A DNA stretch of 64,000 bases from a virus. A program made the translations under genes and the position numbers. Location: IMG/VR virus record IMGVR_UViG_3300035698_024657, positions 1 to 64,000 of that record; one strand, 5' to 3'. Below the pieces are notes generated by a model. The model made no database searches. It saw nothing but the letters and a program-made list of their open reading frames with translations, and was not told the origin of the DNA. Positions within the stretch are counted from its first letter, which is position 1, and each line of letters opens with the position of its first letter. Below, one piece after another: positions 2,596 through 59,289 of this stretch.

Positions 2596-2626
2596 TTGAC
2601 TCTTTTGACTATAACGATTGTATAAT
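2596..2626 (+). promoter_or_regulatory. Candidate promoter
   Basis: TTGACT at 2596 and TATAAT at 2621 are separated by 19 bases, longer than the usual 17. It lies 31 bases ahead of the gene at 2658, which has an AAGGATAAG ribosome binding site. Weak support. Confidence 0.3.
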
Positions 2627-2657
2627 AAACAGAGCAATAATACTGAAAGGATAAGAC

Positions 2658-2897
2658 ATGCCGGCAACTTCCGAAGAAGCAGTTAAATATATCACAGACT
2701 CCTTGGTTACTGGTGAACTGCTTATGAAAGATGCGTGCAATGCTCTTGGATGGAGTTTTCCAAGAATTCGCTCAAGGGCGTTAACGATAGCCAAAAAGTT
2801 AGATGGTACAATCATAAAAGAGGCGCGCGGTAGGTATCGGCTTGAACCTAATACCACCAACGTACAAATACCATCTACTGATGAGGAAGAGGTTTAA
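2658..2897 (+). CDS. Small winged-helix-like DNA-binding protein
   Basis: The protein has 79 residues. The pattern is a helix with a Lys-Asp-Ala-Cys start (KDACNALGWSF), a recognition-type helix (PRIRSRALTIAKKL), then a short beta wing with a basic turn (IIKEARGRYRLEP). The same order appears in the C-terminal domains of the proteins at 7065 and 51952, so it may be a stand-alone member of that family. It has an acidic tail. It lies immediately upstream of the tmRNA-like locus. DNA binding is inferred. Confidence 0.55.
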   Translation: MPATSEEAVKYITDSLVTGELLMKDACNALGWSFPRIRSRALTIAKKLDGTIIKEARGRYRLEPNTTNVQIPSTDEEEV

Positions 2898-2899
2898 TT

Positions 2900-3110
2900 G
2901 GGGGTGAATGGTTTCGACAGTTTACTACTAACGCCCTTACGGGCCGTGCAGGTCATACTGGGCGGGTAAGCTGCACGCGGGCCATATCTCCGTCGCTTCC
3001 TACGCATAAAGGAACTATGATATGATAAACTTAATTGGGGGTGAATTAGATTCGATTGGAGAATGTTCCTATTTTCCAACACGCCGGTGCGATTCCGGCC
3101 ACCTCCACCA
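2900..3110 (+). ncRNA. ssrA: ssrA (tmRNA)-like locus, rearranged
   Basis: The 5' end GGGGGTGAATGGTTTCGAC is a typical tmRNA start: seven-base acceptor strand followed by the UUCGA signature. GTGCAGGTC and the complementary CTGCAC (2945-2976) suggest pseudoknot 1. A possible tag frame begins at GCG 2977 and reads AGHISVASYA before TAA at 3007, but it lacks the usual AA ending. The acceptor 3' strand CACCTCC plus ACCA ends at 3110. The total of 211 nt is short for a tmRNA. A second acceptor 5' strand at 3037 competes for the same 3' end, so this is probably a broken or rearranged gene rather than a normal one. Confidence 0.55.
3037..3110 (+). ncRNA. Stand-alone tRNA-like domain of tmRNA type
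   Basis: The 74-nt segment folds by itself. The acceptor is GGGGGTG with CACCTCC. The D region lacks a stem and carries the tmRNA signature ATTCGA. A 9-bp helix TTGGAGAAT/ATTTTCCAA is closed by the loop GTTCCT, where a tmRNA would carry its message part. The T arm is GCCGG-TGCGATT-CCGGC, and ACCA is encoded. It is not a normal tRNA because there is no D stem and no 5-bp anticodon stem with a 7-base loop. It looks like the tRNA-like domain of a tmRNA without a reading frame. The fold was read by eye. Confidence 0.6.
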
Positions 3111-3125
3111 ACTGTGGAGTTTATT

Positions 3126-3542
3126 ATGTCATTAGTTGATGCGTACACTGCGGGACTTTTCGATGGCGAAGGAACAGTTACATTATGTAAGAAGCAAGCA
3201 AGAGAATTTCGTGCACCTATAGTGCAGTTGGCTAGTACATCTCTTGAACTGTTAGAATTTCTTAAAGGTGAATATGGCGGCTATATTTCAAAGACAACAA
3301 AAAGAGAAGAACACCATAAACAGGCATGGATATGGTCTTGTATCTATGTGAAGGCAATAAACTTCTTTAAGCGTATCTACCCCTATATTAAGGAGGCTGC
3401 GAAAAGAGAACGGATCAGACTTCTTATCGAAGTGTACCCTCAAATTACTCGACGTAATGGAAAGTATACTGCAGATGAGAAGAAAGTGAAATTAGCTTTT
3501 GAGCGTACATTTTTTGGAGAAAGTAAATCATGGCGGAAATAG
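3126..3542 (+). CDS. LAGLIDADG homing endonuclease
   Basis: This 138-residue protein starts at the ATG after TTTATT. Residues 7-15 (TAGLFDGEG) are the LAGLIDADG helix with its catalytic acidic residue, followed by the usual beta strands and a second helical half. A single motif implies a homodimer. It lies 16 bases downstream of the tRNA-like domain and between two copies of the tmRNA 3' end, as expected of a mobile gene that inserted there. No group I intron core was recognised around it. Confidence 0.75.
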   Translation: MSLVDAYTAGLFDGEGTVTLCKKQAREFRAPIVQLASTSLELLEFLKGEYGGYISKTTKREEHHKQAWIWSCIYVKAINFFKRIYPYIKEAAKRERIRLLIEVYPQITRRNGKYTADEKKVKLAFERTFFGESKSWRK

Positions 3543-3793
3543 AAAAAGATAATAGAGGATTTCGACATGCGCCACCACGTACAGATTATGATAATGCCGT
3601 CTATTATGTCAAAGAAAGTAGTTTGGCAACCGATGCTGCAATAAGGTTATTTATTCGCGGCGGACCGCATACTAAAGAATCTGATTTACATTTAACTATT
3701 AGGCAGGCATGGGAACTTATTGATGATATCGCAACTATTTGTATGGCACATTATCAATTAACTAATGATAATTCTCCTGAAGATATATCATAA
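3530..3793 (+). CDS. Hypothetical protein in the ssrA insert
   Basis: This 87-residue protein overlaps the endonuclease gene by 13 bases and ends exactly where the second copy of the tmRNA 3' end begins. The N-terminus is charged (EIEKDNRGFRHAPPRTDYDNAVYY in two halves), and the rest is helical. No motif recognised. Its position suggests it travelled with the endonuclease. Confidence 0.5.
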   Translation: MAEIEKDNRGFRHAPPRTDYDNAVYYVKESSLATDAAIRLFIRGGPHTKESDLHLTIRQAWELIDDIATICMAHYQLTNDNSPEDIS

Positions 3794-3811
3794 TTCCCGC
3801 CACCTCCACTA
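3793..3811 (+). repeat. Second copy of tmRNA 3' end (remnant)
   Basis: ATTCCCGCCACCTCCACTA matches the 3' end at 3092-3110 in 17 of 19 positions. It keeps the acceptor strand CACCTCC and the 3' half of a T arm, but has ACTA instead of ACCA. It brackets the LAGLIDADG gene together with the copy at 3092. Confidence 0.6.
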
Positions 3812-3814
3812 AAT

Positions 3815-3997
3815 ATGACACAGAAAGAATTTGATATTCAACGGGCTCTTGGAGTAATTTCAATAGAGTATAAATTAGGTTTTTGTGATTCTTGTAAAAC
3901 ATGCCAGCCCTTCAGAAGAATTACGCCAAATAGCCGTTGGTACATTTGTTCTCCATGTCGCCAAATAGGAAGACATACGTATTTGGCACAGCATTAA
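3815..3997 (+). CDS. Short zinc-ribbon protein with IQxALG motif
   Basis: This 60-residue protein begins with the recurrent motif at residues 4-13 (KEFDIQRALG). Cys pairs CDSCKTC and CSPC fit a zinc ribbon. It has the same design as the protein at 768 and the one encoded at 21821. The start lies just after the tmRNA 3' remnant. Function unknown; a small adaptor is possible. Confidence 0.6.
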   Translation: MTQKEFDIQRALGVISIEYKLGFCDSCKTCQPFRRITPNSRWYICSPCRQIGRHTYLAQH

Positions 3998-4017
3998 CTA
4001 CGTGAAAGAGTAAACTA

Positions 4018-4224
4018 ATGGCGAGAGTTAGATTACCCAGAATATACAAAATCAATCTTTGTAGCGGCCACGTAGGGTTAATTTATGCTAAGTCGAAACC
4101 GGTGGCAAACAGGAGGGCAATATGTGAGTGGGGAGCAAATGTGAAAAGTGTAGAATCCGCAACTCCTGAAGATGTTGAATGGGTACGTGCTATGGGTGGA
4201 AATGTTCCAGAGATAGAAAGGTAA
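4018..4224 (+). CDS. Hypothetical small basic protein
   Basis: This 68-residue protein has a basic N-terminal half and an acidic C-terminal tail. The order is strand (YKINLCSG), strand (VGLIYAKS), helix (ANRRAICEWG), strand and helix (PEDVEWVRAMG). No family recognised. It starts 20 bases after the upstream stop and abuts the next gene by one base. Confidence 0.5.
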   Translation: MARVRLPRIYKINLCSGHVGLIYAKSKPVANRRAICEWGANVKSVESATPEDVEWVRAMGGNVPEIER

Positions 4225-4225
4225 T

Positions 4226-4504
4226 ATGCCAATAGATAGTCAAGGTAAGATAAAAGTAAGGGGAGGTTTCACCGTTGATGATGCGTGTGCATTTCTCGAA
4301 ATACTGTGCTCTGCTTCCGATCCTATAGGTGTAGCCGTTGGTGTGGAATCATCGCCTTATGATCTTGCAGCACAATATGGAGGGGACACAAAAGCAGGGA
4401 AAGTTCGCATATGGTTTTACGGCCGTAAAGAAGGTTCGCGAAAAATCACAAAGATCAAGGGAACGTTATATACAATGATAGTTTATAGATTAGCAGGAAG
4501 GTAA
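4226..4504 (+). CDS. Hypothetical protein
   Basis: This 92-residue protein looks like an alpha/beta fold. A helix (VDDACAFLEILCSA) is followed by strands (GVAVGVE, KVRIWFYGRK, LYTMIVYRL). It has no catalytic motif or membrane segment. It sits tightly between neighbours in a rightward operon. Function unknown. Confidence 0.5.
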   Translation: MPIDSQGKIKVRGGFTVDDACAFLEILCSASDPIGVAVGVESSPYDLAAQYGGDTKAGKVRIWFYGRKEGSRKITKIKGTLYTMIVYRLAGR

Positions 4505-14495: not shown

Positions 14496-16583
14496 ATGAA
14501 CGGCAACGAATCAACCTCAGAAATTTTGATGAATGCTCGGTACCTTATGAAAGGTGAAAATTGGACAGATTTAACTAAACGCGTAAGTACTGCAATCGCG
14601 GTGGCCGAGAAGACTCCAGAGCTACAAAAGGAGTGGGCCAAAAAGTTTGCTGATATTATACAGAAGAAAGAGTTCGTACCTGCCTCCCCGTTTATGATGA
14701 ACGCAGGGAAAAAAGAAGAAGGTATGAACAACCACCTTTTCTCTTGTTATGTTTTACCAGTAGAAGACTCTCTCGAACAAATTTACAAAACAATTGCCGA
14801 TGCTGCGAAAATATTTCAAGTAGCCGGTGGGGTAGGGTACGACTTTTCAACACTTCGACCCAAAGGATGTTCTACGTCTACATCTGGTGGAACAAGTTCA
14901 GGGCCCATGTCCTTTATGCGGGTATTCAACGCATCTTGTAATGAATTGAAAGCAGGGGGTCGACGTAAGGGCGCACAGATGGGTGTGTTCCGAATAGATC
15001 ATCCCGACATTGAAGAATTTATCAACGTCAAACAAGATTTAACACAATTAACTAACTTCAATCTCTCAATAGCTATTACCGATGCGTTTATGCTGGCAGT
15101 ACGTAATGATGAGATGATCATGCTGCAATTTGCGAGTCATCCTGAGAAAGATCATGAGGTTAGTGCAAAGTCTCTTTGGGATCAGATCGTAAAAGGGGCA
15201 TGGAGATGTGGCGAGCCGGGCGTCTTGTTTATCGACAGAATAAACGATAAAGATCCCATTGGAGGCATTTTTGCGACTAACCCCTGTGGAGAGATTCCTC
15301 TCCCTCCTTATGGTTGCTGTAATTTAGGCTCGATTAATCTGGCGCAGATGATCCGTAGGGGAAAATTCAATTGGGACCGCTACAAAGAGATTATTCATAT
15401 TGCTATTCGTTTCCTCGACAATGCAATTGACGTAAATACCTACACGTTGCCTGAAATTAAAGAGCAACAATTAAACCAACGTCGCGTAGGTTTAGGTGTT
15501 ATGGGCTTGGCTGACTTATTCGTCAAGTTAAGTATTGCTTACGACTCCAAAGAAGCGCGTGAAATGAGTGAGGAATTAGCGAGGATACTGCACGAAACCT
15601 CAAAAGCCGCGTCAGAAGACTTATCTAAAGAGAAAGGCGCGTTTCCTGCGCAGAATAGCAGTAAATTGAAGGATTCTTTACCTATTCGTAATGCTACACG
15701 TACCGCGATCGCACCAACTGGATCAATTAGCATTGTTGCAGAATGTTCTTCGGGAATTGAACCTATTTACGCGATAACTCTCGAAAGGCGCCACGATTTA
15801 GCAGACCATGATGTAATCGTCGAAATCAATCCACTATTCCTTGAAATTGCAAAGAAGCAGCAGTTCTATTCAGAAGCCCTTATTGCAGGAATCCGCGAAA
15901 ATAACGGATCTTGCCAAGGCGTAGAAGGTGTACCAGAGGATGTTCAGAATATCTTCAAGATTGCTGCAGATATTAAACCAAAAGATCATGTAGAGCAATT
16001 GGCGGTTTGGCAAGGAAATATTGATAGTGCAGTTAGTAAGACTATCAATTTAGCCTCTTCTGCTACGGAAGAAGATATTGAGCACATCTTCTCAATGGCC
16101 TACGATCTTGGATGCAAAGGTATTACCGTGTACCGTGATGGATGTAGAGGTGCACAAGTTCTTGCTTCTGGAATACAGAAACTGGAGCGACCTGATGTAG
16201 TGCCAGGTAAGACCATCCGTGTTCCTACCAGTTTAGGTACAATGTATATTACCGTCGGTGTTATAGAGGGTCGGCCATTTGAAGTCTTCGTTAGTCTACG
16301 AACCGGAGGAACAAATGCGGGTGCTGATGCAGAGGGTCTGGCACGAATGGTCTCTCTTGCACTGCGAACGAAAGTAAGCGTCTATGACATCGTTAAACAA
16401 CTTAAGGGAATTGGATCAGGTGCAGCTGTCTTCCATAAAGGAAGGGTAATCACGTCTATCCCTGATGCTATAGCTTATGCGCTGGAGAAATATTTCCTGG
16501 ACTCAAAAGTCGCACATCCAGATGATCATGCACAATTTGCGAGCGGCTCCGAAGGCATGTATTGTAAAGATTGCGACGATTAA
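14496..16583 (+). CDS. nrdJ: Adenosylcobalamin-dependent ribonucleotide reductase (class II)
   Basis: This 695-residue protein reduces ribonucleotides to deoxyribonucleotides for phage DNA synthesis. Signature parts are SCYVLP with Cys84, the finger-loop motif NPCGE at 262-266 with the thiyl-radical Cys264, GCCNLGSINLA just after, and PTGSIS in the barrel. The C-terminal region 570-670 matches the TSCPD-like extension of NrdJ enzymes, and the tail ends in CKDC, the expected redox pair. There is no small R2 subunit nearby, consistent with class II. The enzyme needs B12, which must come from the host or environment. Confidence 0.9.
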   Translation: MNGNESTSEILMNARYLMKGENWTDLTKRVSTAIAVAEKTPELQKEWAKKFADIIQKKEFVPASPFMMNAGKKEEGMNNHLFSCYVLPVEDSLEQIYKTIADAAKIFQVAGGVGYDFSTLRPKGCSTSTSGGTSSGPMSFMRVFNASCNELKAGGRRKGAQMGVFRIDHPDIEEFINVKQDLTQLTNFNLSIAITDAFMLAVRNDEMIMLQFASHPEKDHEVSAKSLWDQIVKGAWRCGEPGVLFIDRINDKDPIGGIFATNPCGEIPLPPYGCCNLGSINLAQMIRRGKFNWDRYKEIIHIAIRFLDNAIDVNTYTLPEIKEQQLNQRRVGLGVMGLADLFVKLSIAYDSKEAREMSEELARILHETSKAASEDLSKEKGAFPAQNSSKLKDSLPIRNATRTAIAPTGSISIVAECSSGIEPIYAITLERRHDLADHDVIVEINPLFLEIAKKQQFYSEALIAGIRENNGSCQGVEGVPEDVQNIFKIAADIKPKDHVEQLAVWQGNIDSAVSKTINLASSATEEDIEHIFSMAYDLGCKGITVYRDGCRGAQVLASGIQKLERPDVVPGKTIRVPTSLGTMYITVGVIEGRPFEVFVSLRTGGTNAGADAEGLARMVSLALRTKVSVYDIVKQLKGIGSGAAVFHKGRVITSIPDAIAYALEKYFLDSKVAHPDDHAQFASGSEGMYCKDCDD

Positions 16584-50842: not shown

Positions 50843-51955
50843 TTATTCTGCAGCTTCTCCCTTAAATTTAGGGAACTCTATATCTTCGGTATCCGCGGCA
50901 TCCTCCGAAGAATCTTCTGTACGGGTACCTATATGCTGTTCAAGGAGCAGGGCATATACCCGTGCTTGAAATTCTTCATCAGCCAAAGCTTCTTTAATCG
51001 CAGTAACGGTCGGATATTCAAGAACCTCATCACCTAAAGTGAGAAGATATCCTTTGGGTGACTTCTCATACATTTTCCTATTCTTAAGAATAGACATGAC
51101 GGATTTTACGGTATCCAATCCCTGGGTATAATTAATGAAAAACTCGCCCTCACGCAAAGGGGGTCCAAGTTTGTTCTTTTTGTTCTTCACTTCAATGGAG
51201 TGCCCAATAACATCACCGTGCTCGGTTACTTGCGACTGTGATTTCTTATTTACTCTATATCGTTGAGCCGCATAAAATTTTAGCGCTCTTCCCCCAGGAG
51301 TACTTTCAGGACTACCAAACATTACTCCGGGTTTCTCTCTAATCTGATTGATAAAAATACAACAAGGACCATCTGGGCCCTCTGGATCCAATGCACCTAA
51401 AGTGGCGACAATTTTTTGAATTCCTTTACTTGCTGCTCTGGCGGCTTCGGCCATATAGGCTTTGTCTATCGTGCCCTCAAGTTGTGCCCGAGGAATCATT
51501 GCTGCAAGCGAATCAATAACGATATATGTATACACACCCGAACGAATTGCTTCAATTATTACATCATAATTTTGTTCTGCGGTTAATCCCGCACTCACGA
51601 TATCGAAATAATTAAGATCAATTCCAAGAGTTTCTAACCACTCTACGGGAGTACCTCCCTCGATATCAAAATATAGTGCGGTTGACTTAAACATTTTCTG
51701 TGCATAGGCAACTGCACATAAAGACAATAAAGATTTACCGCTAGACTCGGGGCCATATATTTCAATTACCCTACCACTTGGAAATCCCCCACAACCTGTA
51801 GCGACGTCAAATGTAAAGATGCCTGTAGGAATAGAACGTACTGCGGGTAAGTCCGCTGCAGTATTTACAGTCACTCCTTCTTTCTTATACTTTACTTGAA
51901 ATGCGTCCTTAAATCCTTGACGCCCTTCACTCGGTTTACTCGCTTTTACCATCAT
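50843..51955 (-). CDS. recA: RecA recombinase
   Basis: The 370-residue product has GPESSGKS (Walker A, 68-75), YIVIDSLAAMIP (Walker B) and loop regions with INQIREKPG and GRALKFYAAQR. It promotes strand exchange in recombination and repair. Length is typical. The C-terminal tail is acidic (EDSSEDAADTEDIEF), as in bacterial RecA. It overlaps the upstream gene's stop by four bases. Confidence 0.9.
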   Translation of the reverse strand: MMVKASKPSEGRQGFKDAFQVKYKKEGVTVNTAADLPAVRSIPTGIFTFDVATGCGGFPSGRVIEIYGPESSGKSLLSLCAVAYAQKMFKSTALYFDIEGGTPVEWLETLGIDLNYFDIVSAGLTAEQNYDVIIEAIRSGVYTYIVIDSLAAMIPRAQLEGTIDKAYMAEAARAASKGIQKIVATLGALDPEGPDGPCCIFINQIREKPGVMFGSPESTPGGRALKFYAAQRYRVNKKSQSQVTEHGDVIGHSIEVKNKKNKLGPPLREGEFFINYTQGLDTVKSVMSILKNRKMYEKSPKGYLLTLGDEVLEYPTVTAIKEALADEEFQARVYALLLEQHIGTRTEDSSEDAADTEDIEFPKFKGEAAE

Positions 51956-53511: not shown

Positions 53512-56316
53512 TTACGCGGCCTCATCTGCATAGAACTGCGCAAGTCCCGCGGCAATATCATCAGCGGAGATTTCGGTAAGGTCGCCCCAATTACGCCCAA
53601 TTTCAATCTCGGAGGCCATAGGTACTTTCATGTTTTCAACATTTTCAGTCATCTTCTGGTGACACATAGTCAATACTGCTTCCGCACATGCGGGCGCGAG
53701 TTCAAGAATAATAGAATCATGTACGGTCAAAATAAGGTGAGCTTCCCACTCGGGATGTTTACGCAATTCATCATATATCTTAATCAGCGCCACTCCGGTA
53801 AGGTCCGCAGCCCCTCCCTGAATAGGTGCATTCACTGATTGACGTAATGCCTCGGCCCATTTTTGTTTATCTGCAAATTTCATTTGCGCGTACGGGAGTC
53901 GTCGAACTCTACCAAAATATCCCGGAGAATGTCCAACAGATTCCGCATACTTTTTAGTAGTGGCTAACCATCTACGGGCAACAGGATACTTAGCAAAAAA
54001 CTGTTTAATAATCGATTCAGCCTCTTCTGTAGTGATTTTTACTTGTTTCGCTACAGATGCCGCACCCCTACCATACATCAATCCGAATACTACGAATTTT
54101 GCAGCAGACCTCTGGTCCTTTGTAACCTCTTTTTCCGGAATACCCCAAAATTGTGCAGCCGTTGCCCTATGGATATCTAAACCACTTTTAATGTCATTAA
54201 TCATATCCAGATCATTAGACAATTCTGCCCACATGCGGAATTCCGCCTGGGCATAATCCATTTGAGCAATAATCCAACCAGGATAAGTAGGAATAAAGGC
54301 CTTTTTAATGTCTTTGTTCGCTCTGGGAATATTCTGTAAATTTGGATCAGAACTACTAAGACGTCCAGTCACCGTAACATGTTGATTAAAATTCGTATGG
54401 ACCCGATCACCTTGCTTTGCCCTTTTTATCTGGCCTTTTACATATGTCTTATGTAACTTACTTAATGTGCGGTTCTCTGAAAGTGCCGCGACACATATAT
54501 GGCTATCCGTTAATGCCTCAAGTACTTCTTTATCGGTAGATAACCCAGCTTTGCCAGTTTTTTCAGGGAAGGGATGAACGAGACCAATCACATCAAACAA
54601 TAAAAGTCGAAGGTGATCATGAGAATTTACATTAAAGGGTATAGGCTTACCATAATGGACACCATAAGCCTTCTTAGTGAATTTCGGTTTCTTCTGAGTA
54701 AGCCCAGCTTTAAAATCTATAGTAGTCTTGAGAGTTTCCCAACGCTCTTCTGCCTTCTTTTGACTTTTCTTGAGTAACTTTTCACACGTTGTTGTAATCT
54801 CAGGCATACAAAGTAATGACTGCACAAGTGCTTCTAATTTTAGGGAATACCCTACATCTAATTTACGCAAATATGGAATGTTTACCTTTGCTCCACGGTG
54901 CTCCATGGCATCAAGTACTCTACGCTGCCTCATAACTAATTTATGATAATACCTAACCATATCAGTTTCAGGACGATTATTGTGCGAATACGCATATGTT
55001 GCAGCTTCTTTATGTAGGCGTCTCGTAAGTACATGAAATACGCGAAGGGTGGCATCTGCATCCATTGCGGCATACGGCCAAAGAATCTCCGTAGGAATAT
55101 CTGCGTAAGTAATATCCTTCTCGCGCAGTGCAAGATCTTCTAATTCTCCCTCAAGTTCTACAATATCTTGATTGATTTCAATTGATTCAGTATCGTCGGC
55201 CTTCTTGAGTATCTTCTTAAGGCCTTTTATCTTATCTTTACACGTTTTTTGATCTGCCTGCAATAATTTACGGCGATCAATCTTTAACTGCGTCTTACAT
55301 GCATCAAGGCCTTCATCATAATTACCCATATCCGTATATACGTTTGCCATTGCTTTTAAGCCCTTCAAATCGTTCGCATTTTCATCACATAACGATTGAA
55401 GTAACATAGTATCTTCCATTGGCCCAGCAATTTCAATACCTGCAGTTTTTAGGAATTTCGCGTCAAATGAAATATTTTGCGCGATCCAAGTAACGCTGGG
55501 ATCCCCATAAATATTGCAAAGAGCGGTATGTATCTCTGCAAGTTCCTCTTCCGTCCAAATTGTTGCTTCTTTATATCCCAATAATGGTAGAACTACCGCA
55601 GTATTTTCTTTCCATGAAAAAGAGTAACATAACAGACGATCTTTCACAAAATCAAACCCAGTCGTTTCGGTATCAAATACAATAGTCTTCTGTTCCCGCA
55701 TCTTTACCATTAATTTACGGAATTGATCAATAGTTTGAACGTATGCATACCGTACGGCAGATCTTGTAGGTGTTTCGCCCCGAGTAAGTTGACCAAATGT
55801 CTTAAAATGTTTCAGCGCTCTATCTTTATACGTGATATTCCGCTGTACGTACGACGGATGTACACTTACAAAAACTCGGTAAGAGGCAGAATCAGTTTTA
55901 TAGTTAATTACTTGTCCCGCAAGTTTCATTACTTGCGTTTGTCCGGTAATCGCCTCTAATGCATCACCACCTAAAGTAATGATGAATCTTGGTTTAACCG
56001 CATTAATCTCTTGATCTAAATAAGTACGACAAGCTGCACGCTCCTCTGTAGTACTTGGACGATTACCGGGAGGACGACATTTAGCCAAAGTGGTAATATA
56101 CACATTGGCTCGGGTTAACCCCATTGCATGGATAAATTCATCCAATAACTGGCCTGGTACGGATTTTGGGGCAAATTGTTTCCCTGTGCTATCTTCATGG
56201 TCGCCGGGTTCTCTTCCAATAATCATTACATCGCAAGGCGATGGGCCTTCCCCCCAAAGGCAGCGGGTATTTGCTCCCGGGCCAAGAGTACAAAGAGTAC
56301 AATTTGGATTCCTCAT
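53512..56316 (-). CDS. polA: DNA polymerase I with N-terminal uracil-DNA glycosylase
   Basis: The 934-residue product is a fusion. Residues 1-180 are a family 4-like UDG: C6xxC9, GREPGDHED (34-42), KCRPPGNRP with Cys80, Cys96 and VHPSYVQRN (152-160), the Cys set fitting an iron-sulphur cluster. Residues 185-460 are a 3'-5' exonuclease (FDTETTG with D215, E217; AMDADATLRVF). The polymerase has motif A MDYAQAEFRMWAE, motif B RSAAKFVVFGLMYG and motif C TVHDSIILE. It replicates phage DNA. A UDG-polymerase fusion of this general kind is known from SPO1-like phages, as I recall. Confidence 0.9.
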   Translation of the reverse strand: MRNPNCTLCTLGPGANTRCLWGEGPSPCDVMIIGREPGDHEDSTGKQFAPKSVPGQLLDEFIHAMGLTRANVYITTLAKCRPPGNRPSTTEERAACRTYLDQEINAVKPRFIITLGGDALEAITGQTQVMKLAGQVINYKTDSASYRVFVSVHPSYVQRNITYKDRALKHFKTFGQLTRGETPTRSAVRYAYVQTIDQFRKLMVKMREQKTIVFDTETTGFDFVKDRLLCYSFSWKENTAVVLPLLGYKEATIWTEEELAEIHTALCNIYGDPSVTWIAQNISFDAKFLKTAGIEIAGPMEDTMLLQSLCDENANDLKGLKAMANVYTDMGNYDEGLDACKTQLKIDRRKLLQADQKTCKDKIKGLKKILKKADDTESIEINQDIVELEGELEDLALREKDITYADIPTEILWPYAAMDADATLRVFHVLTRRLHKEAATYAYSHNNRPETDMVRYYHKLVMRQRRVLDAMEHRGAKVNIPYLRKLDVGYSLKLEALVQSLLCMPEITTTCEKLLKKSQKKAEERWETLKTTIDFKAGLTQKKPKFTKKAYGVHYGKPIPFNVNSHDHLRLLLFDVIGLVHPFPEKTGKAGLSTDKEVLEALTDSHICVAALSENRTLSKLHKTYVKGQIKRAKQGDRVHTNFNQHVTVTGRLSSSDPNLQNIPRANKDIKKAFIPTYPGWIIAQMDYAQAEFRMWAELSNDLDMINDIKSGLDIHRATAAQFWGIPEKEVTKDQRSAAKFVVFGLMYGRGAASVAKQVKITTEEAESIIKQFFAKYPVARRWLATTKKYAESVGHSPGYFGRVRRLPYAQMKFADKQKWAEALRQSVNAPIQGGAADLTGVALIKIYDELRKHPEWEAHLILTVHDSIILELAPACAEAVLTMCHQKMTENVENMKVPMASEIEIGRNWGDLTEISADDIAAGLAQFYADEAA

Positions 56317-57400: not shown

Positions 57401-59289
<1,889 letters not shown>

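Follow-up and report, generated by a model that had tools for sequence, protein, structure and literature searches.

tmRNA, the product of the ssrA gene, is the RNA that rescues stalled ribosomes, and a form of it reduced to the tRNA-like domain (TLD) with no message is described from phages, the mycobacteriophage DS6A being the named example of the "standard, no CDS" form (PMC4131195, PMC11915505). A 2025 database of 97,179 tmRNA sequences lists nine sequences of this form (PMC11915505), and in the papers that we examined, which were open-access only so that an earlier report of a wider class is not excluded, DS6A is the only phage named. DS6A-like TLD RNA strongly inhibits tmRNA in E. coli, and this inhibition did not need charging (PMC4131195, PMC11915505, citing Mao 2009). 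The TLD binds AlaRS, EF-Tu and SmpB, and a TLD fragment together with SmpB drives polyalanine synthesis without template in vitro (Shimizu and Ueda 2006, as cited in PMC3929946), whereas a TLD construct in which the 5' and 3' parts are joined by a UUCG loop has been used for crystallography (PMC3929946). Group I intron-form tmRNA genes with a LAGLIDADG endonuclease in the T-loop are also known, and all 883 known intron-form tmRNAs carry their intron in the T-loop, which is therefore an established hot spot (PMC11915505). Free-standing homing endonucleases are also found in phages, where they take part in intronless homing.

Here we analyze a locus of a large uncultured phage in which a message-less TLD lies between what are best read as the two halves of a second tmRNA gene, next to a LAGLIDADG gene. 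The window analyzed is a stretch of 64,000 nucleotides, the first 64 kb of the 130,254-base IMG/VR record IMGVR_UViG_3300035698_024657. A sequence-only reading had proposed that the locus is a broken tmRNA gene containing a self-contained 74-nt TLD and a homing endonuclease gene, that a mobile cassette carrying its own TLD had inserted into a phage ssrA gene, and that a charged domain without a tag frame could bind SmpB, EF-Tu or alanyl-tRNA synthetase and interfere with rescue.

Results

The observation itself was confirmed, with the coordinates and features of the sequence-only reading being right. The 16-nt direct repeat TTAATTGGGGGTGAAT occurs exactly at both tmRNA 5' ends and nowhere else in the window within two mismatches (0.09 matches expected), placing the mature 5' G's at 2900 and 3037, and the two 3' end copies are identical at 17 of 19 positions (0.01 matches expected with up to three mismatches), within a 25-nt repeat of 84% identity. 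ARAGORN and Rfam at gathering thresholds returned nothing. In E-value mode, however, RF00023 aligned end to end to the 74-nt unit only, with a score of 42.6 bits, just under the gathering cut-off, and an E-value of 3.4e-15, bridging a gap of 326 model positions where the message should be, so that the TLD of a full tmRNA is present in this unit while the mRNA-like domain with resume codon, tag and stop, flanked by pseudoknots, is absent from it. A covariance model scoring 2900-3110 as one ordinary tmRNA, or finding no fit for the 74-nt domain, had been named in advance as grounds for rejecting the proposal, and neither occurred. We also built a covariance model, R1, from 44 other message-less TLDs without this sequence; it scored the unit at 64 bits (E 3.9e-13), the only other match in the 130-kb record being weak (14.2 bits, E 0.37). 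The permuted two-piece form, in which the 3' acceptor piece precedes the 5' piece, was not found, as the best RF04321 match reached 17 bits (E 0.74), and no Intron_gpI match was obtained at E<=10 in 2600-4300. The RNA folds alone into a 7-bp acceptor, a 10-bp hairpin in the P2 position and a 5-bp T arm (-28.6 kcal/mol, z -3.3), and this local fold is also favoured in the minimum free energy structure of the 211-nt region. The acceptor, GGGGGUG/CACCUCC, contains G3-U70, the alanine identity pair, which had likewise been set beforehand as a feature to look for. The positions of all features are given in Table 1.

Table 1. Features of the hybrid locus, of the remainder of the window and of other loci mentioned in the text. 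Numbers preceded by L denote loci retrieved in the database searches.
Sequence	Position	Strand	Feature
Window	2894-2909	+	First copy of the 16-nt repeat TTAATTGGGGGTGAAT (start of the first tmRNA plus 6 upstream nt)
Window	2900-3036	+	5' part of a tmRNA gene (first tmRNA), acceptor/D-loop strand GGGGGTGAATGGTTTCGAC; no T arm and no 3' acceptor strand
Window	2919-2924 with 3026-3031	+	Candidate P2 of the first tmRNA (AGTTTA with TAAACT)
Window	2932-2936/2960-2964 crossing 2946-2951/2971-2976	+	Candidate PK1 of the first tmRNA (CGCCC/GGGCG crossing GTGCAG/CTGCAC)
Window	2992-3009	+	GTC followed by a short candidate tag, GCT TCC TAC GCA TAA (2995-3009)
Window	3031-3046	+	Second copy of the 16-nt repeat, start of the mini-TLD
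Window	3037-3110	+	Complete message-less TLD (mini-TLD), 74 nt, CCA encoded, G3-U70, P2-type 10-bp hairpin, T arm with T-loop UGCGAUU
Window	3092-3110	+	First copy of the 3' end motif
Window	3103-3119	+	Hairpin CTCCACCAACTGTGGAG (terminator-like)
Window	3114-3119	+	Shine-Dalgarno-like GTGGAG of the endonuclease gene
Window	3126-3542	+	LAGLIDADG homing endonuclease gene, 138 aa
Window	3530-3793	+	87-aa ORF of unknown function (phrog_3849, E 7.5e-6)
Window	3793-3811	+	Remnant of a tmRNA 3' end from T-loop A58 through acceptor (ATTCCCGCCACCTCCACTA)
Window	14496-16583		Ribonucleotide reductase
Window	50843-51955		UvsX-like recombinase
Window	53512-56316		DNA polymerase
Window	57401-59074		GroEL-like chaperonin
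L056	6093-6154	-	Pistol ribozyme (RF02679)
L073	13302-13377	-	Pistol ribozyme (RF02679)
L143	1621-1716	+	Pistol ribozyme (RF02679)
L053	6877-6958		Mini-TLD in a tRNA array
L053	7147-8346		ORF resembling a TROVE/Ro60-type protein
L032	3860-3941		Mini-TLD with inner P2-loop motif
L115			Mini-TLD with inner P2-loop motif
L131	2383-2466		Mini-TLD on a contig of a filamentous cyanobacterium
L138	7186-7269		Mini-TLD on a contig of a second filamentous cyanobacterium

Considering the remaining pieces of tmRNA, the first unit displays the 5' acceptor/D-loop strand, a possible P2, a possible H-type pseudoknot in the PK1 position and a reading frame that would be a very short tag (ASYA) after the usual resume context. 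These are readings from the sequence, and the pseudoknot is only suggestive, since 49 of 1000 shuffles gave one as good. The 3' fragment starts in the T-loop and ends CCAC; its CACCTCC pairs 7/7 with the GGGGGTG of the first unit, while its T-stem strand CCCGC does not fit the GCCGG of the mini-TLD. The first unit and the 3' fragment are thus best read as the two halves of one tmRNA gene, minus the short stretch between P2 and the T-loop, with the mini-TLD, the LAGLIDADG gene and the 87-aa ORF lying between them.

The endonuclease passes the Pfam cut-off for LAGLIDADG_3 (PF14528, 23.1 bits against 22.5), and its AGLFDGEG motif is invariant in four relatives; a search of solved structures returned none. 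Its closest relatives in IMG/VR, at 50, 49 and 41% identity (L122/L123, L124 and L125), all lie at a phage tmRNA gene: L124 and L125 directly beside permuted tmRNAs, and L122 inside an insertion that splits a standard tmRNA exactly in the T-loop (...GGGTTCGATT followed after the insertion by TCCCATCCGGTCCACCA), with a weak group I intron match (E 0.0098). Thus 3 of 3 independent relatives at 41% identity or more lie beside phage tmRNAs, against 0 of 36 more distant ones (38% or less) with a tmRNA above the gathering score nearby, a threshold that would miss weak TLDs such as the present one. A T-loop-directed, ssrA-specific endonuclease clade is therefore likely, although the evidence is genomic association only, cleavage and homing not having been assayed. 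In the window the acceptor 3' strand CTCCAC can pair with the Shine-Dalgarno-like GTGGAG of the endonuclease gene, so that TLD folding could expose that site, but this hairpin may be due to chance (one found, 1.0 expected in shuffles). The phage also encodes its own GroEL-like chaperonin, ribonucleotide reductase, DNA polymerase and UvsX-like recombinase.

To assess whether the mini-TLD is unique, we scanned IMG/VR with the pattern GGGGNNGN{7,9}TTCGAN{18,46}CRANNCN7CTCCACCA and obtained at least 120 loci, which together with the window gave 87 unique sequences of 62-84 nt. All 87 have 7/7 acceptor and 5/5 T-stem pairs, the unforced pairs vary in a compensatory way, with P2 and the T stem covarying, and unforced tmRNA-specific positions are kept (GG before UUCGAC, GGAC before the T stem). 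The forced G1, G2 and CCA positions are a limit of the pattern, so the true class is wider. Changing the 3:70 pair to G-C or to A-U gave 0 and 0 loci, while changing the neighbouring pair 4:69 to C-G gave 19, of which 17 pair fully. Lengthening the middle to 105-135 nt, in search of compact full tmRNA ancestors of the first unit, left only 3 poorly paired matches. In 84,980 bacterial and archaeal genomes there were 27 hits, of which only 6 pair fully and 21 were poorly paired, so the class is phage-enriched; this contrast, together with the RF00023 E-value, led us to reject chance as the origin of the mini-TLD. Two of the cellular mini-TLDs (L131 and L138) lie in or beside tRNA genes of filamentous cyanobacteria, where prophage regions were not sought. 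ARAGORN misses the class almost completely, with 3 overlapping calls in 121 loci, all wrong in form; the tmRNA calls over mini-TLDs in L056 and L097 were inspected and judged false.

In 23 mini-TLD records tested, many of them fragments, we found no SmpB, and the only strong tmRNA match was the mini-TLD, with no full-length tmRNA. None of the 120 other mini-TLD loci carries the endonuclease gene. Pistol ribozymes were detected in 3 of 10 scanned mini-TLD loci, in L056 about 106 nt upstream of the mini-TLD on the same strand, which may be a processing or marker association. In L053 an ORF that by eye looks like a TROVE/Ro60-type protein with a vWA-like motif (DGSGSM) starts 189 nt downstream of the mini-TLD; bacterial Y RNAs are also tRNA-like, but such an ORF was not found at other mini-TLD loci. 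The longer mini-TLDs (77-84 nt, for example those of L032, L053 and L115) share an inner P2-loop motif close to AAACC(G/A)AAGUGAAC, similar by eye to the canonical tmRNA stretch AAACCCAAGGUGCAUG, and possibly a conserved binding element. No DNA similarity to cultured phages was found for the 2.2-kb region nor for four mini-TLDs including this one, and no relatives of the flanking 331-aa protein were found; no intact relative of this phage was found.

Discussion

The explanation we favour, with moderate confidence, is that a phage tmRNA gene was interrupted at its T arm by an insert that ended up as mini-TLD, LAGLIDADG endonuclease and ORF, the endonuclease belonging to a clade that lives at phage tmRNA genes and probably cleaves the conserved T-loop/acceptor block. 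In this view the surviving functional RNA is the 74-nt TLD, which is expected to be cut out by RNase P, charged with alanine through G3-U70 and bound by host SmpB and EF-Tu; having no resume codon and no tag, it would occupy SmpB and stalled ribosomes without tagging and so dampen host trans-translation during infection, for which the DS6A-type RNA is a precedent. Our analysis demonstrates the sequence, the fold, the class-wide selection including G3-U70 and a dependence on host SmpB, the last resting on the absence of smpB from the records tested, whereas the processing, charging, binding and competition of the phage RNA with host tmRNA, for which no expression, charging or binding data were obtained, are deduced from the conserved features and from tmRNA biochemistry, and the cleavage site and the history of the insertion are likewise inferences. 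The interpretation of the sequence-only reading is hence supported in part: the 74-nt unit is a genuine message-less TLD, the endonuclease belongs to a small clade that sits at phage tmRNA genes, the first unit and the 3' fragment look like the two halves of one interrupted tmRNA gene and interference with rescue has an experimental precedent, but it was not shown that the TLD travels with the endonuclease, whose relatives sit at full-length or permuted tmRNAs instead, and that reading could not know that the mini-TLD is one of a large phage class.

Pure titration of SmpB explains why the inhibition by DS6A-type RNA did not need charging, but it does not explain the invariant G3-U70, which suggests that charging matters in nature, for ribosome entry or alanine transfer, or that the pair is kept for another reason, such as stability through SmpB/EF-Tu binding; G3-U70 is conserved in all tmRNAs (PMC3985003). 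An alternative, possible but tentative, is that the charged mini-TLD enters stalled ribosomes with host SmpB and transfers alanine to the nascent chain, possibly repeatedly, thus acting on stalled chains instead of merely sequestering SmpB; the invariance of 3:70 although 4:69 varies is in agreement with this, but the precedent for template-free addition is in vitro only. Extending this idea, which we consider doubtful, phages would encode on a large scale message-less alanine-chargeable TLDs with a viral alanine-tailing activity, and in this phage such an RNA gene would have been joined to an ssrA-targeting endonuclease that destroys competing phage tmRNA genes and replaces their output with the mini-TLD.

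It is unlikely that the whole locus is functionless debris of an ssrA gene broken by an endonuclease. The first unit lacks its 3' half, the 3' fragment lacks its 5' half, the mini-TLD has an unusual T-loop G55 and its RF00023 score is below the gathering cut-off; nevertheless, the mini-TLD keeps its full acceptor and T-stem pairing, G3-U70 and the encoded CCA, belongs to a class under clear structural selection, and its UGCGAUU loop recurs in other members. A tandem ssrA duplication, in which a second copy lost its message and the first its 3' end, or an attachment-site relic with the 3' fragment as an attP-like piece, also appears unlikely although a tandem arrangement followed by losses remains possible: the repeats at both ends and the frequent use of ssrA as an integration site would fit, but the two TLDs diverge right after the repeat and in the T stem (GCCGG against an implied GCGGG), so that there was no recent duplication, and the gene between the 3' copies is an ssrA-associated endonuclease. 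Least likely is a single tmRNA spanning 2900-3110, with the 5' GGGGGTG at 2900 pairing with the 3' strand at 3100-3106 and 3037-3082 as an internal insertion. Both 5' strands are identical over 10 nt, so either can pair, and candidate P2, PK1 and tag are present in the first unit, but we rejected this reading because the covariance model chooses 3037-3110, ARAGORN is silent, the local fold is favoured and the mini-TLD has its own P2-type hairpin.

These results show that message-less phage tmRNAs are a common, structurally constrained class in uncultured phages, in which the alanine identity pair is under strong selection, and this sets a sharp test between SmpB titration, where charging is dispensable, and an activity that needs charged RNA, for example template-free alanine addition. 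They also link a homing-endonuclease clade to the T arm of phage ssrA genes, giving a route by which tmRNA genes are broken and remodelled.

With respect to described systems, the TLD-only tmRNA as such is already known; the hybrid locus, the ssrA-associated endonuclease clade, and the size and constraint of the class are new. Like the DS6A RNA, the mini-TLD is a tmRNA tRNA-like domain with no message, in a phage and in normal, not permuted, order; its 74 nt fall within the length of about 65-85 nt taken for this type and it has G3-U70, although SmpB binding and inhibition of host tmRNA were not measured here and the DS6A sequence was not aligned; it is embedded in a broken tmRNA gene with an endonuclease, and the class of at least 120 loci is far larger than the nine database sequences. 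The group I intron-form tmRNA genes share an endonuclease gene at the T-loop, and L122 looks like this form, but in the window no group I intron is detectable, the endonuclease lies outside a complete TLD and the target gene is left in two halves. As with free-standing phage homing endonucleases, a small LAGLIDADG gene sits beside its presumed target with partial copies of the target around it, the target here being a tmRNA gene. Finally, the crystallographers' TLD construct has the same architecture as the short natural mini-TLDs with tetraloop-capped P2, which are natural phage genes with CCA and G3-U70 encoded.
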